The translations under genes were made by a program, and so were the position numbers. Shown in pieces: positions 4,975-33,305 of a DNA stretch of 64,000 bases. Under the pieces are notes generated by a model. It was given only the letters and a program-made list of their open reading frames with translations. It had not been told where the DNA came from and made no database searches. This stretch comes from Glaciihabitans arcticus. GTDB lineage: Bacteria; Actinomycetota; Actinomycetes; Actinomycetales; Microbacteriaceae. Location of the stretch: assembly GCF_004310685.1 (NCBI RefSeq), contig NZ_SISG01000002.1, positions 62,001 through 126,000 of the forward strand, read 5' to 3'. How positions within the stretch are numbered: the first letter of the stretch is position 1; each line of letters starts with the position of its first letter.

Positions 4975-5640
4975 CTACTCGAAGTCGGGATCCGGCCCCT
5001 CGACATAGCTGAAGGCGGCACGTGGTCGGCGGCCGTTGTTGAGCACCCCGTCGCTCTCCTCGAGGTAGCACTTTCCGCAGAGGCTCTCGTAGGAGACCTC
5101 AGCTCCGTCGATCGCCACCTGATCGCCATCGAAAATGAACTGCCCGTCGATCGTGCGGGCGTTGAACACGGCCTTGCGACCGCAGCGGCAGATGGTCTTG
5201 AGCTCTTCGAGCGAGTGCGCGACCTCCAGAAGGCGTCGGCTGCCCGGGAAAGCGACTGTCTGAAAATCGGTGCGGATGCCGTAGGCCAGCACGGGCACGC
5301 CCTCGAGGATCGCGATGCGCAGGAGGTCGTCGACCTGGCTCTCGGTGAGGAACTGCGCCTCATCCACGAGCAGGCAGCTAACGTCGAGCCCGGTCTGCTT
5401 GCGCACTCGCGCGCGCTGGGCGGAGAACGCCTCGTAGATGTCTTCGTCGCGGGCGACGGTGAAGTCCACTGGGCGGGTGACGCCCAGGCGCGAGACGATG
5501 TCGGAGTCGCCCTTGGTGTCGACCTGCGGCTTCGTGAGCAGCACCTGCTGGCCACGCTCCTCGTAGTTGTAGGCGGCCTGCAACAGCGCTGTGCTCTTGC
5601 CGCTGTTCATGGCTCCGTAACGGAAGTAGAGCTTGGACAT
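4975..5640 (-). CDS. tdk: Thymidine kinase, type II
   Basis: The 221-residue cytoplasmic enzyme phosphorylates thymidine to dTMP in the pyrimidine salvage pathway. The P-loop is GAMNSGKST (9-17), the catalytic glutamate lies in DEAQFL (Glu94), and the zinc-ribbon cysteines are at about 151, 153, 188 and 191 (CRC and CGKC). Length and domain order fit the TK1-like family. The ATG overlaps the response-regulator stop by one base (TGATG), making it the last gene of an operon with the kinase, its partner and the regulator. No functional link between this salvage enzyme and the signalling genes is evident; it may only share their promoter. Confidence 0.95.
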   Translation of the reverse strand: MSKLYFRYGAMNSGKSTALLQAAYNYEERGQQVLLTKPQVDTKGDSDIVSRLGVTRPVDFTVARDEDIYEAFSAQRARVRKQTGLDVSCLLVDEAQFLTESQVDDLLRIAILEGVPVLAYGIRTDFQTVAFPGSRRLLEVAHSLEELKTICRCGRKAVFNARTIDGQFIFDGDQVAIDGAEVSYESLCGKCYLEESDGVLNNGRRPRAAFSYVEGPDPDFE

Positions 5641-6341
5641 CAGTTGAGGTATCCGTCCTCCGCGGCGCGACGGATCAGTTCCGCTCGCTTGCTCGCGGGT
5701 CGATTGGCTTTGACGTACTTCTCACGCACACGGCGCAGGTAGGTTTTGGCGGTCTCGTACTGCACGTTCATCGCGGCGGCGACCTCGGCGGTGCTCGCTC
5801 CCGTCACGTAGTGCCTGAGGGCTTCGATCTCACCGGGGCTCAGTTTGGGCCGGATCGTTGTGCTCGCACCCACGGGCAGTGGGCGCCAGTCACGAGGGAG
5901 AGTGGAGTCACTGCGCACTCCCATGACCGTGCGGGCTGCATCCATCACCTCACGCATCGAGAGGGTCTTCGAGAGGAAGGCGGAGGCACCGGCATCGAGG
6001 GCGCGCTCGCGGGACTCGCGGCTGTCGAGGCTGGAGAGCACGATCACCTTCGCCCCGGCCGCACGGCAGGTGCGCACGCGGGCTTCGATCGAGACGGGCT
6101 CCTTGAGCTGGAAATCGAGGAACACGAGGTCGGTCGGAAACTTGTCGCTGTGCACGAGCTGCAGCCAGGTGCTCGCGCTGAGCACGAGGTCGAAGTCGGG
6201 GGCGTTGGCGGCGATCCAGCTGGTCAGGCTGTCGAGCAGCACCTCGTGGTCGTCGAGGATCGCGAGGCGCACGCCGGTTCGCTCTGGTACCTCGAAACCG
6301 GGCGCGAAGAGCGATCCGGCTTCATCGATGTCCATAGCCAA
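5640..6341 (-). CDS. NarL/LuxR-family response regulator
   Basis: The 233-residue regulator has a receiver domain with acidic pocket D30-D31, predicted phospho-acceptor Asp76 in FLDFQL and conserved Lys125 in FLSKTLS, then a LuxR-type helix-turn-helix at about 165-225 (LSPGEIEALRHYVTG followed by STAEVAAAM and the recognition helix YETAKTYLRRV). It should be phosphorylated by the kinase encoded upstream and bind DNA as a dimer. The start overlaps the partner gene by 20 bases, or 14 if the second methionine (6335) is used. It is the only response regulator seen near either kinase module in this window, and the two kinase promoters share a sequence element that it might bind. Confidence 0.9.
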   Translation of the reverse strand: MAMDIDEAGSLFAPGFEVPERTGVRLAILDDHEVLLDSLTSWIAANAPDFDLVLSASTWLQLVHSDKFPTDLVFLDFQLKEPVSIEARVRTCRAAGAKVIVLSSLDSRESRERALDAGASAFLSKTLSMREVMDAARTVMGVRSDSTLPRDWRPLPVGASTTIRPKLSPGEIEALRHYVTGASTAEVAAAMNVQYETAKTYLRRVREKYVKANRPASKRAELIRRAAEDGYLN

Positions 6342-7467
6342 ATCCTAGTCGGAGCGCAGGACGCTCCATCTCGACCCGGAGATCGCGGAACAGGATCTGC
6401 ATCACGGCGAGATAGGGGTCGAGCAATTCGTGCAGGGCGCCGGCGGGAACGTCGACCCGTGCGCCCAGCGAGAGTCGGTAGCCGACTCCGTGGGGCACGA
6501 GTTTGATGTCGAGGGAGCCGGGTTCGAAGCCGGCCTGGCCGTGCAGGGCGACGAGCACGGCGCGCAACACCGTGCGCTGGTCGATGGTCATCAGGTCGGC
6601 GAGGTGCGATTCATCCCGGATGCCCGCGCTCCCGCCCGCGACGCCGCCGAGTTGCTCGAGCACTCCGTCGAGCCAGCTCCTGTCTGCCTCGGCCACCATC
6701 ACCGCGCGGATGTTCTCGGCCAGGGACCGGGCATCCCCCCGGTCGGCGTCGGTCACGGACGATGCCGCGAGCACCCTTGTGAAGTAGGGCACCACGTCCT
6801 GGTTGAGGATCGTCACGCGGTCCTGCTGCACGGATCGGGCGATGCCGTCACTGCGCGAGCCGACCAGCGCGTCGGTGGACATCGTTGCGAGGCTCTCCCA
6901 GCGATCGAGGCTCGCGACGAGCTCGTGGGCGAAGACCGCGGAGCCCGCAGCGAGGGCGAGCACAGGGGTCACCGCGACCACCACGAGAACGTGGATGGGA
7001 GCCGCCGAGGCGAGCGTGCCGTACTGCGCCACGGTAGTGACGGCGACGACGATCGTGGAGATGACCCCCGCGACCGCGATGCTGCGTGCCGGACGGAAGG
7101 GTGCGACGGCGAGCAGGAACAGCCCGACGACGGAGGGGCCCCAGTCGTCGCGCACGTAAGCGTTCTCACCCCACATCGATGCTGCCCCGAAGACGTGGGC
7201 GAGCAGCGCTCCACCGACGACGAGCACCATGCTCGGGCGGTCGAACGGCGCCCGCATCGGATTCGATGCCCGGGCGAAGACGACACCGGTTGCGACGGTC
7301 AGCAGCAGCGACATCACCGCGAGGATCGGATCGACCACGTCTTCGACGTTGAGCGCGATCATGATCGCGGCGTAGAACGGCACGGCGATGGCGGCGAGCA
7401 GGCTCGTCGGACGCCCGACGAGGGCGGCTAGGGGGTCGCGCTGTTGCAGGGTGCGTTCCCGGATCAT
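6322..7467 (-). CDS. Membrane protein with degenerate kinase-like C-terminus (partner of sensor kinase)
   Basis: The 381-residue product begins MIRERTLQQRDPL and has about six membrane helices in the first 190 residues, including an extracellular-loop motif NAYVRDDWGP. The cytoplasmic part contains QDVVPYFTRVLAA, SLAENIRAVMVAE and MTIDQRTVLRAVLVALHG, which follow the spacing of a dimerisation plus ATPase-like region but lack a phospho-accepting histidine, the N-box asparagine and the glycine boxes. It aligns along its length with the product at 31060-32142, including the YVRDDWGP motif. The start is fixed by the ATGA overlap with the kinase stop. I infer a catalytically inactive partner of the kinase; no established family name is known to me. 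Confidence 0.7.
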   Translation of the reverse strand: MIRERTLQQRDPLAALVGRPTSLLAAIAVPFYAAIMIALNVEDVVDPILAVMSLLLTVATGVVFARASNPMRAPFDRPSMVLVVGGALLAHVFGAASMWGENAYVRDDWGPSVVGLFLLAVAPFRPARSIAVAGVISTIVVAVTTVAQYGTLASAAPIHVLVVVAVTPVLALAAGSAVFAHELVASLDRWESLATMSTDALVGSRSDGIARSVQQDRVTILNQDVVPYFTRVLAASSVTDADRGDARSLAENIRAVMVAEADRSWLDGVLEQLGGVAGGSAGIRDESHLADLMTIDQRTVLRAVLVALHGQAGFEPGSLDIKLVPHGVGYRLSLGARVDVPAGALHELLDPYLAVMQILFRDLRVEMERPALRLGFGYGHR

Positions 7468-8693
7468 CGCCGCACCGCCGCGGACGCTCGCGAGCCGCCG
7501 GGCTCGGTATCGGTGGATGCCGGCACCCGGATCAGCACGGACGTGCCCCGCCCGGGGGTCGACCAGAGCTGCACGGACCCCCCAACGCCTTCGATGCGCG
7601 AGCGCACGGAATGCCGAAGTCCCAGTCGATCGGAACCCGTCTCGCCGATGACGAATCCGACTCCCGCATCGACGACCATGACCGACACGTCGGATTCGGA
7701 TCCGTAGAGAACGACCTCGGCGCGATCGGTTCCCGCGTGGTCGACCACGTTGACGAGGCACTGCCGCACGGCGAGTGCCACTGCCGTCGCGCCGTCGACC
7801 GCGAGCCGGGAGAGCGCCGACAGGTCGCCGCTCACGTCGATCGTGAGACCCCGTGCACCGATCTCGTCGATGACTTTCGCGAGCCTGCTCGTCGTCCAGA
7901 CCGTCGATGTCTCTGCGGCACTCTCCCCGTGGCCGAGAAGCCACTCCTCGCCGACCAGGGCAGACAGGTCCCGTTCGATCTGCTCCCGCAGCTTGCGCGG
8001 AAGCTGTTCGTCCCCCGCCTCGGCGATTGCCGCGAGGTTGCCGAGCACCGTGTCGTGAAGCATCGCGGCGGCACGGATCTCGAGCGATTGCCGCACCGTG
8101 GAGAGGTGCTCGTCACGCGCGGCGCGGTACAGGCCGGGTCCCGCAGCGAGCACCCGGGTGCGTCCGGCGGCGATGAGGGCGAGCACGATTCCGAGCAGGG
8201 CGACGACGATGATCGTTGTACCGTCCAGTCGCGCGGGCATTCCGCTCGGCATCGCGCCCAGCACCGTCGCGAAGCCGCCGAAGACGAAGGCGGCGAACAT
8301 CCAGCCGGCGGCGGGAAGCACGCCGGAGCCAACCCCGCCGATCAGGATCAGCGCAACCTTGGGCAGGGTGAAGATGAAGGTGTCCGTGGTCGTCGCGGTG
8401 GGGTAGAGCTGGCTCGACGCCAGCACGAACCAGAAGATGCTCGCCGACCCGATGAGCAGGTAGCCCACGGTTGCGGCGAGACTGGGTCGCCAGGCGAGCA
8501 GCCACAGCATCGCGAGCATGGGCAGCAGGGCGAGAGTCGTGGGCCAGAGCAGCCTCTCGGGGTACGCGGTCTGCAGCAGGAGCGTAGAGGCGATCGTGAG
8601 CAGAAGGCAGACCGCCGCAGTCACGTGGCAGGCCCGCGCGTAGGCCCAGCTCACACCGTGGGATGCGAGATGGATGGGGAACCCCAACGACAT
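7464..8693 (-). CDS. NarL-type sensor histidine kinase
   Basis: The 409-residue product has five or six membrane helices (about 24-180) and then a cytoplasmic kinase module. The phospho-accepting histidine is probably His213 in AAMLHDTVLGNL, a variant of the HisKA_3 box. The ATP-binding domain has the N-box RQCLVNVVDHAG (Asn315), VDAGVGF (Asp342) and a closing GRGTSVLIRVP. The first residues MSLGFPIH are short and polar, so the start is reasonable. It heads a four-gene overlapping operon (kinase, inactive partner, regulator, tdk) and starts 75 bases after the ABC-F gene, so read-through is possible. A sequence resembling an element in front of the second kinase gene lies at 8745-8759. The stimulus is unknown. 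Confidence 0.85.
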   Translation of the reverse strand: MSLGFPIHLASHGVSWAYARACHVTAAVCLLLTIASTLLLQTAYPERLLWPTTLALLPMLAMLWLLAWRPSLAATVGYLLIGSASIFWFVLASSQLYPTATTTDTFIFTLPKVALILIGGVGSGVLPAAGWMFAAFVFGGFATVLGAMPSGMPARLDGTTIIVVALLGIVLALIAAGRTRVLAAGPGLYRAARDEHLSTVRQSLEIRAAAMLHDTVLGNLAAIAEAGDEQLPRKLREQIERDLSALVGEEWLLGHGESAAETSTVWTTSRLAKVIDEIGARGLTIDVSGDLSALSRLAVDGATAVALAVRQCLVNVVDHAGTDRAEVVLYGSESDVSVMVVDAGVGFVIGETGSDRLGLRHSVRSRIEGVGGSVQLWSTPGRGTSVLIRVPASTDTEPGGSRASAAVRR

Positions 8694-31059: not shown

Positions 31060-32142
31060 CTACAGAGTGAATCGCAGGCAGAACTCGGTGCCCGTGAACT
31101 CACCGATAGCTGTCGGGAAGATGCCGCGAGCCACTGCGACGAAGGGTGCCAGCCGCACGCGCGGGTTGCTGCCCGGTGCGATGCGCGCGGTCAGCTCGCC
31201 GCCACCCGGCGTCATCGCCAGCGCGATGCTGCCGGACACCGAGTTCTCGGCACCGCGAAGGTGTGCGACGAGGGCACGCAGGCTTCCCCGCTGGCCGGGA
31301 CTCAGCCGCTGGGCGATGCGATCGGGATCGTCGAGGCTGTCCACGAGTTGCTCTGCCCAGCTCTGCTCGGCGTCGAGCACCATGAGCGCCCGCAGCTCGG
31401 CCGAGAGGGAGCGGGCGCGCGGGCCATCCCGATCACTGATGGCACCGGACTCGACGATCGATTCGAGGAACGGGATGACCTCACCGTGCAGGTAGCCGAG
31501 GTGGCTGGACGCTGCGGCGTCGGCGAGCACGCCTGAGGATGCGAGGGGCGCCGGCTTCTCCGCGTCAAGCCCGGCCCGCCAGGCCACGAGGATGCCGACG
31601 AGGGTCGCGCTGAAGGCTGCGGCGGCCACCCCGCTTGCGAGCACGGGGGTGGCCGCCGCGAGCGCATAGACGGCCGTCGGCACGGGGGTGGTCAGGCTGC
31701 CGGACTCGGCGACGGCGATCACGGCGAGGGCGACGGCGGAGAACAGGGCGCTGCCGAGCAGCTCGGGCCAGGCACGGTACGACCCGAGGGAGAATATGAC
31801 GATCGCCATGGCGACCGGACCCCAGTCGTCGCGCACGTAGGTGTTGGTGCCCCACTGGCTGAGCGCGTTCAGCAGCACGGCGACGAGGCTGCCGCCGAAG
31901 ACGACAAAGTGGGAGGCGAGGTTGAACGGAGGACGAAACGCACTCGTGGCCCGCACGAAGAAGCCGACGGTGGCGACGAGCACAAGGATCGCGGCGAGAG
32001 CGAGCGGGATCGAGGAGATCTGGGATGCGCCCACCACGCTCATCACCACGGCCGTGACGATCGCGAAGATGCCCGCGGCGATCACCACGAGCCGCGCGGT
32101 GATGCCGCCGAGCGGGTCGAGACTCTGCGGTGTGGCGCTCAT
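31060..32142 (-). CDS. Membrane protein with degenerate kinase-like C-terminus (second module)
   Basis: The 360-residue product begins MSATPQSLDPLGG and has about six membrane helices with the loop motif NTYVRDDWGPVAM. Its cytoplasmic half (LHGEVIPFLESIVESG, SLSAELRALMVLDAEQSW, LSPGQRGSLRALVAHLRG) aligns with the partner protein at 6322-7467 and likewise lacks the phospho-histidine, N-box and glycine boxes of a working kinase. The start is fixed by the ATGA overlap with the kinase stop, exactly as in the first module. PAP2, oxidoreductase and acetyltransferase genes follow instead of a response regulator. Confidence 0.7.
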   Translation of the reverse strand: MSATPQSLDPLGGITARLVVIAAGIFAIVTAVVMSVVGASQISSIPLALAAILVLVATVGFFVRATSAFRPPFNLASHFVVFGGSLVAVLLNALSQWGTNTYVRDDWGPVAMAIVIFSLGSYRAWPELLGSALFSAVALAVIAVAESGSLTTPVPTAVYALAAATPVLASGVAAAAFSATLVGILVAWRAGLDAEKPAPLASSGVLADAAASSHLGYLHGEVIPFLESIVESGAISDRDGPRARSLSAELRALMVLDAEQSWAEQLVDSLDDPDRIAQRLSPGQRGSLRALVAHLRGAENSVSGSIALAMTPGGGELTARIAPGSNPRVRLAPFVAVARGIFPTAIGEFTGTEFCLRFTL

Positions 32143-33305
32143 CGCAGCGGCACCGTGATCGAGACAGAGGTGCCCACGCCGGGTGTGGTCCAGAGCTGGA
32201 CGGTGCCACCGACGCCCTCGATGCGGCGGCGCACCGAGTTGCGCAGACCGAGTCGGTCCCTGCCGACCGCCGATTCGACGAAGCCCACGCCTGAGTCGAT
32301 GACCATAACCGTGAGGGTCGCGTCGGCGGCGATGACCGCCACCTCGGCCGCGCCGGTTCCGGCGTGCGCTGCCACGTTGCCGAGGCACTGGCGCACCGCG
32401 AGGCCGAGCGCCGTCGCCGTCTCGTCGGAGAGCAGCACCTCTGTTCCGAACTGGCCCGCGAGAGTAACCACGAGTCCCGACGAGCGGGCGTGCTCGATGG
32501 CCGCGGCGAGCGCACCGTCCACCGCCCGCCCGTCGACACCGGCGACAGGGGCGTCCTCGCGCATCTCGGCGATGCTCGCGGAGATGCGTTCCAGCGCGCG
32601 CGGCGGCACCGGGCCGACTTCCCGCGTCGCGACGACGGCGAGCTCGTTCAAGATCGTGTCGTGCACGAGAGCGGATGCCCGGCTCTCCGCCAGCTCACGC
32701 GTGAGTGCCGCCGAGTCGACCTCGTCGGCGCGCAGGATCTGCGGCTCAATGGACCGCGCCATCCGACGTCCTCGCGAGAGGAGTCCGAGCGTCAGCACGA
32801 TCACGATGAAGATGGATGTCGCGCCGACGTCGAGCGCCACCGGGTGCCCGAAGCCCAGGGCGGCGACGATGACGATCCCCTGCGCGACCAGATAGGCCAC
32901 GATGCAGGCCACGAGGCCGCGCACCACCCGCGAGGCGGTGACGCCGAACATGGTGAGGGCAATGACCGGGAGGGTGAGCAGCAGGTTGTCGGAGGGGGCG
33001 TCCTGCTCCTGGTAGCTCATGACGGTGTGGGTGTACCAGGCCATCGACAGCAGTTCGACGACGGCCACCGCACCGATGAGAACGGGGAGTCGGCGACGCA
33101 TCCGCACGAGAACGACCGCGCCCACGACCATCAGCAGCAGGGCGGGGAACGCGGCGTAGGCGCCGAGTCCGGGCAACGACGGCACGATCTGCATGATGAC
33201 GAGGAATGCCGCGCTGAGGCACACGATCCCGAACCAGAAGGATCCGCGGGCGAACGCGGAGTTGGTGCTGGGCACGGCGAGGCTCGTCGGAAAGACCTGT
33301 GACAT
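32139..33305 (-). CDS. NarL-type sensor histidine kinase (second module)
   Basis: The 388-residue kinase has about six membrane helices (25-178), a probable phospho-accepting His215 in ASALVHDTILNEL, N-box RQCLGNVAAHAG (Asn310), IDSGVGF (Asp337) and a closing GVGTSVSITVP. It is a paralogue of the kinase at 7464-8693 (shared LGLRNSVRRRIEGVGG region). The ATG at 33305 has GGGAGG 4 bases upstream; a GTG immediately before it is an alternative. No response regulator gene is in this operon, so phosphotransfer to a distant regulator, perhaps the one at 5640-6341, is expected. Confidence 0.85.
   Translation of the reverse strand: MSQVFPTSLAVPSTNSAFARGSFWFGIVCLSAAFLVIMQIVPSLPGLGAYAAFPALLLMVVGAVVLVRMRRRLPVLIGAVAVVELLSMAWYTHTVMSYQEQDAPSDNLLLTLPVIALTMFGVTASRVVRGLVACIVAYLVAQGIVIVAALGFGHPVALDVGATSIFIVIVLTLGLLSRGRRMARSIEPQILRADEVDSAALTRELAESRASALVHDTILNELAVVATREVGPVPPRALERISASIAEMREDAPVAGVDGRAVDGALAAAIEHARSSGLVVTLAGQFGTEVLLSDETATALGLAVRQCLGNVAAHAGTGAAEVAVIAADATLTVMVIDSGVGFVESAVGRDRLGLRNSVRRRIEGVGGTVQLWTTPGVGTSVSITVPLR

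Follow-up and report, generated by a model that had tools for sequence, protein, structure and literature searches.

To our knowledge, histidine pseudokinases have been described in a handful of isolated examples such as DivL, which keeps a recognisable kinase sequence and is not known to be translationally coupled, one to one, to its kinase. The system described here is a pair of adjacent genes, encoding a membrane histidine kinase (K) and a partner membrane protein (P), found in two modules in a window of 64,000 nt of the Glaciihabitans arcticus contig NZ_SISG01000002.1 (the whole stretch of DNA analysed, positions 62,001-126,000, forward strand), and its partner belongs to a real family of histidine pseudokinases living in obligate pairs with kinases. 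In its working the pair would come closest to DivL, RetS/GacS and the ChrS pseudokinase, from which it is set apart in that its pairing is obligate, its genes are translationally coupled and family models miss the partner. DivL of Caulobacter, as is proposed for the partner, is a degenerate histidine kinase controlling an active kinase, CckA (PMC9491836), and its structure (4q20) ranks among the best that Foldseek gave for partner 1; in contrast to DivL, the partner escapes Pfam and its gene comes immediately after that of the kinase in every case. In Pseudomonas, the RetS/GacS multikinase network has one kinase-like protein controlling a second through direct contact (PMC5992135), whereas the partner has no conserved phospho-histidine, ATP site or receiver domain. 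The ChrS pseudokinase and HrrS of Corynebacterium glutamicum are actinobacterial, and there a dead kinase raises output via a paralogous active kinase, heterodimers having been shown for the native proteins (PMC9491836); that pseudokinase, however, came from a laboratory-evolution frameshift, while the partner represents a naturally conserved family.

Regarding accessory proteins, LiaFSR likewise groups kinase, regulator and an accessory membrane protein modulating the kinase in one operon, LiaF being a negative regulator (PMC3543457), whereas neither LiaF nor any other accessory-protein family turns up among the matches of the partners, whose predicted fold is kinase-like. In the actinobacterial G-protein system CvnA8/CvnF8 an accessory protein binds its cognate kinase and stimulates autophosphorylation (PMC13343842), but CvnF is a stand-alone GAF protein and the partner a membrane pseudokinase. 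The MacS-family kinases (NF047322) have an HDxVL H-box similar to that of the kinases of the window, but the unpaired relatives found with this family model read HDSVLQ, adjoin a regulator and have no partner. No description of the present pairing was found in the open-access literature.

Both modules lie on the minus strand (module 1, 8693-6322; module 2, 33305-31060; Table 1), in agreement with the two kinase and partner modules that an earlier note on this DNA had placed at 6322-8693 and 31060-33305, and the ATGA overlap between kinase and partner that it had described is present at both junctions, each reading ...GCGATGA.... The two partners are homologous (E 5.8e-38, 31% identity). The unit, which had been said to be present twice, does occur twice in the window, but the source genome has at least six such pairs: modules 1 and 2, a third close pair elsewhere in the genome, next to the aldolase gene fba, and a further three that are more distant. 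Module 1 has the gene order kinase-partner-RR1-tdk, the gene of the response regulator RR1 overlapping the end of the partner 1 gene (5640-6341 versus 6322-7467).

The pairing is without exception in the genomes surveyed. In 120 Microbacteriaceae genomes, in which strong partners and strong kinases were counted, 79/79 strong partners have a kinase directly upstream and 79/79 strong kinases have a partner (61 genomes), with no orphan partner or orphan kinase among these members, which supports the earlier suggestion of an obligate pair; many genomes having the kinase but not the partner would, by the earlier note, have refuted it. A second set of 56 loci with organism names (Frigoribacterium, Salinibacterium, Glaciihabitans, Frondihabitans, Planctomonas and others) has the kinase beside the partner in all 56, some of these loci coming from genomes of the first set, so that the two surveys are not fully independent. 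The 4-nt overlap of kinase and partner genes was detected in 51 of the 56 related loci and in 52 of 72 family pairs. Pairwise distances among kinases and among partners are correlated (r 0.86, against a maximum of 0.17 after shuffling) and the clades match, although part of this correlation is owed to shared ancestry. A search of about 140 genomes of the order at E 1e-6 gave no strong type-A partner outside the family; of 99 genomes of the order, 26 contain type-C partners, and each locus read has a kinase upstream of the partner. In the source genome, a type-B pair (L017, 1304-6351) has two related response regulators and a small lipoprotein-like gene on its flanks.

Pfam (45 partners, E up to 1) and NCBIfam gave no meaningful match for the partners, and no HATPase_c match is listed for any of the 45 at E <= 1; for partner 1 there is no Pfam hit at all, for partner 2 just a chance one to PorA, and a LiaF domain was not found. 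The AlphaFold model of partner 1, built from 45 sequences and with a mean predicted local distance difference test (pLDDT) of 86, consists of six transmembrane (TM) helices, a long helix that continues as a hairpin of two helices, and an alpha/beta domain whose elements run strand, helix, strand, strand, helix, strand, strand. Residues 263-381 of this model align with the catalytic and ATP-binding (CA) domain of VanSA at Z 11.0 over 115 residues and with DesK at Z 10.8 (VIA-align), the list of matches being almost wholly made up of kinase-type CA domains, and the top ranks in Foldseek are kinases such as DesK and DivL, none below E 0.001. By this model, partner 1 is predicted to have the CA (Bergerat) fold; its C-terminus does not fall in an unrelated fold, the other outcome that the earlier note had named as refuting, and the earlier description of the partners as kinase-like but catalytically degenerate gains support from histidine-kinase CA domains being its top structural match class. 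The model of partner 2 is poorer (pLDDT 79, about 55-75 in the CA region) and gave Z 7.3 over 140 residues against DesK, a value to be read with the uncertainty of the model in this region; among its weaker structural matches is the RetS-GacS complex 7n0e. In profile comparisons the type-C partners form a bridge, matching type-A partners at E 7.6e-16 and kinases at E 4.4e-11, with a reversed control at 1e-4.

Column counts over 71 partners revealed that none of the phospho-His, the N-box Asn and the G1 motif is conserved, as the earlier note had said of the phospho-histidine and ATP-binding boxes, while P227, W265, D285, R298 and R302 are nearly invariant. P227 sits in the hairpin of partner 1 that resembles a dimerization and histidine phosphotransfer (DHp) domain, where the phospho-His is absent. 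A candidate surviving phospho-His in partner 2, the His of YLHGEV at the lost column, is not conserved within the clade of that partner. Pseudogene decay is rejected on account of the conserved residues and the pairing with a kinase, and the partner is, judging from these alignments, a maintained pseudokinase rather than a decaying gene. The YVRDDWGP/RDDWGP loop is conserved among partners; YVRDDWGP and the blocks TIDQRTVLRAVL / SPGQRGSLRALV stand letter for letter in the two partners of the window, as noted earlier, while a further block described as ALAAEIRAVM-like actually reads SLAENIRAVM / SLSAELRALM. By the positive-inside rule, the loop between TM3 and TM4 is predicted to face the outside of the cell. 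The block SVQQDRVTxLN (partner 1 residues 212-222) is highly conserved in regulator-linked partners only and is possibly a site of contact with RR1; as a HisKA-like [DE]xx[TN] phosphatase motif, SVQQDRVT would lie about two turns off the equivalent position, and this is not claimed.

Table 1. Positions in the window of the kinase and partner genes, their features and the adjoining genes.
Feature	Position	Strand	Description or basis
Kinase 1 (K)	7464..8693	-	Membrane histidine kinase, 409 amino acids; H-box HDTVLGNL (H213), N-box N315, G1 DxGxGF
Partner 1 (P)	6322..7467	-	Histidine pseudokinase, six TM, 381 amino acids; predicted from AlphaFold model, CA fold
ATGA overlap, kinase 1 stop / partner 1 start	7464..7467	-	Sequence
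Degenerate CA domain, partner 1 residues 263-381 (predicted)	6325..6681	-	VanSA and DesK structural matches
DHp-like helical hairpin, partner 1 about residues 195-261 (predicted)	6685..6885	-	AlphaFold helices 158-235 and 240-261; column counts
YVRDDWGP loop, partner 1, between TM3 and TM4	7135..7158	-	Model helices, conservation
RR1 response regulator, receiver and LuxR-type helix-turn-helix	5640..6341	-	Response_reg E 6e-10, GerE E 2e-5
Thymidine kinase (tdk)	4975..5640	-	Sequence
Kinase 2 (K), 388 amino acids, H-box HDTILNEL	32139..33305	-	HATPase_c E 1.1e-6
Partner 2 (P), six-TM pseudokinase, 360 amino acids, no adjoining response regulator	31060..32142	-	Homology to partner 1
ATGA overlap, kinase 2 stop / partner 2 start	32139..32142	-	Sequence
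YVRDDWGP loop, partner 2	31816..31839	-	Sequence, alignments

Regarding the kinase subunit, the HATPase_c match of kinase 2 (29.5 bits) is over the Pfam gathering score of 26.4 and that of kinase 1 (E 2.7e-5, 25.0 bits) slightly under it, and the HATPase motifs are intact in both. Pfam HisKA_3 has no match in either kinase, their DHp domain going unrecognised by it, and among the HisKA_3 matches listed for genome G000 none falls at the pair loci; the earlier assignment as NarL-type kinases is thus only approximately right. The best curated family in NCBIfam is the MacS family NF047322, with 50 and 67 bits for kinases 1 and 2 and a cut-off of 300. Column counts in the clade show that paired kinases retain the H, N and G boxes with few exceptions, one regulator-linked kinase having Ser at the N-box Asn position; the H-box of the L020 kinase reads HDDVLATL.

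Concerning output, RR1 is the next gene after the partner in 55 of the 56 related loci, the 56th ending at a contig end. Module 2 and the fba-linked pair fall in a regulator-less clade, whose pairs do not adjoin a regulator. An RR1 orthologue is nevertheless kept by nine genomes with only regulator-less pairs; in eight of these it stands next to tdk and adjoins no pair. Across the 120 genomes RR1 and type-A pairs occur together in 53, one without the other in 8 and 7, and neither in 52 (Fisher p 2e-17, an optimistic value given that the genomes are related to each other). Since RR1 is kept in genomes with only regulator-less pairs, a shared output is suggested, and the simplest reading is that RR1 may serve as the common output of regulator-linked and regulator-less pairs. 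In module 1 the RR1 stop codon shares its last base with the start of tdk, and tdk follows RR1 in 54 of the 56 related loci, contig ends having truncated the remaining two. RR1 and tdk also stand side by side in six genomes without a type-A pair (L211, L212, L213, L215, L216, L217), while two genomes (L218, L219) have the order K-P-tdk with no regulator, the C-terminal domain of their partners being altered. At L214 (913-3232, minus strand) the N-terminal half of the kinase, through the H-box, is fused in frame to the RR1 receiver and the rest of the kinase and the partner are gone, which is either a natural fusion or an assembly artefact. In one genome the RR1 match has an internal TAG (G075:C11:79052-79708), and either the gene is broken or the match may extend beyond a stop codon.

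The reading that we consider probable is a two-subunit membrane sensor of an active kinase and an obligate, allosteric pseudokinase, with RR1 as shared output. The partner would retain a membrane sensor domain, a DHp-like helical hairpin and a CA-like domain, having lost the residues needed to bind ATP in the known way or to carry phosphate on the usual His. Translational coupling would supply kinase and partner in matched amounts, and we infer that the two assemble into a heteromer via their DHp-like and membrane parts, with the partner as an allosteric and probably signal-receiving subunit that sets the activity level of the kinase. The kinase would phosphorylate the NarL-type regulator RR1 of module 1, which regulator-less pairs such as module 2 and the fba-linked pair may feed too. 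In favour of this reading are the one-to-one pairing, the 4-nt overlaps, RR1 as the next gene wherever the contig allows, the correlated distances and matching clades of kinases and partners, the CA fold of partner 1, the nearly invariant residues of the partners, the co-occurrence of RR1 with pairs, the RR1 orthologues of genomes with only regulator-less pairs, and the lack of the DxxxQ/H residue in paired kinases. Neither RR1 nor the regulator-less clade nor the loss of the phosphatase residue from paired kinases figured in the earlier note, whose reading was incomplete in these respects.

Several observations weigh against this reading. Seven genomes hold RR1 without a type-A pair, so that RR1 may there have another driver or be a relic. 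In three regulator-less kinases (L170, L171, L175) the phospho-His is replaced by N, G or R with ATP-binding motifs kept, and going by these residues they would not fit a simple kinase role in their pairs. The model of partner 2 is uncertain in the CA region and would by itself be insufficient for a fold. Regarding homology, the comparison of type-A partners with kinases by hidden Markov models (HMM-HMM) of the cytoplasmic part scored 23 against 16 for the reversed control, which is weak, and because the TM-only comparison did not exceed its reversed controls, the kinase homology of the partners is based on the fold and the type-C bridge; the partner alignment used as a profile against solved structures gave no match.

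A rather unlikely alternative is that the partner is mainly a phosphatase arm, promoting dephosphorylation of RR1 alone or bound to the kinase, with kinase and phosphatase functions split over two subunits. In NarX-like HisKA_3 kinases the DxxxQ motif next to the phospho-His is needed for phosphatase activity (PMC3510030), and the equivalent residue in DesK is Gln193 (PMC5231405). Tested for this NarX/DesK-type motif, the paired kinases fail: the DxxxQ/H residue is present in 0/97 (71 type-A, 5 type-B and 21 type-C) as against 44/45 unpaired relatives (29/30 HisKA_3 kinases and 15/15 MacS-like kinases without a partner). The two groups are phylogenetically distinct, and the contrast is hence a correlation between families, not proof of a functional swap; paired kinases may also just have no phosphatase activity. 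The restriction of the SVQQDRVTxLN block to regulator-linked partners would suit a phosphatase acting on RR1, but the block is absent from regulator-less partners, the equivalent helix position of the partner holds a nearly invariant Pro in place of an amide, and no known phosphatase motif occupies the usual site in the partner.

Less probable again is that kinase and partner form separate homodimers with higher-level contact, or that the partner is an independent co-expressed membrane sensor, the link between the two being functional only. Both proteins have DHp-like hairpins that might homodimerise, and the separately encoded GacS and RetS show control of one kinase by another (PMC5992135), whereas one-to-one pairing without exceptions, translational coupling and matched trees favour a complex of fixed stoichiometry. 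That the partner is no relative of kinases, or is a decaying functionless kinase gene, is very improbable and largely refuted: the 45 partners without a meaningful Pfam match and the weak profile similarity of type A alone would be in keeping with it, but the CA fold of partner 1 with its match list filled with kinase-type domains, the type-C bridge, and the strict conservation of residues and pairing stand against it.

Thus, a conserved and Pfam-invisible pseudokinase family in one-to-one association with an active kinase offers many natural replicates for the role of a dead subunit, together with a clean and testable correlation, that kinases with a partner never carry the canonical phosphatase residue. 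More tentatively, and with somewhat less than an even chance, the pairs may represent a class of actinomycete two-component system defined by an obligate kinase:pseudokinase heterodimer, a kinase without the phosphatase residue, control placed in the dead subunit and several sensors sharing one regulator. If the complex is a true strict heterodimer, autophosphorylation would be possible only in cis, and if several pairs do share one regulator, the family would be a ready model of multi-sensor integration.
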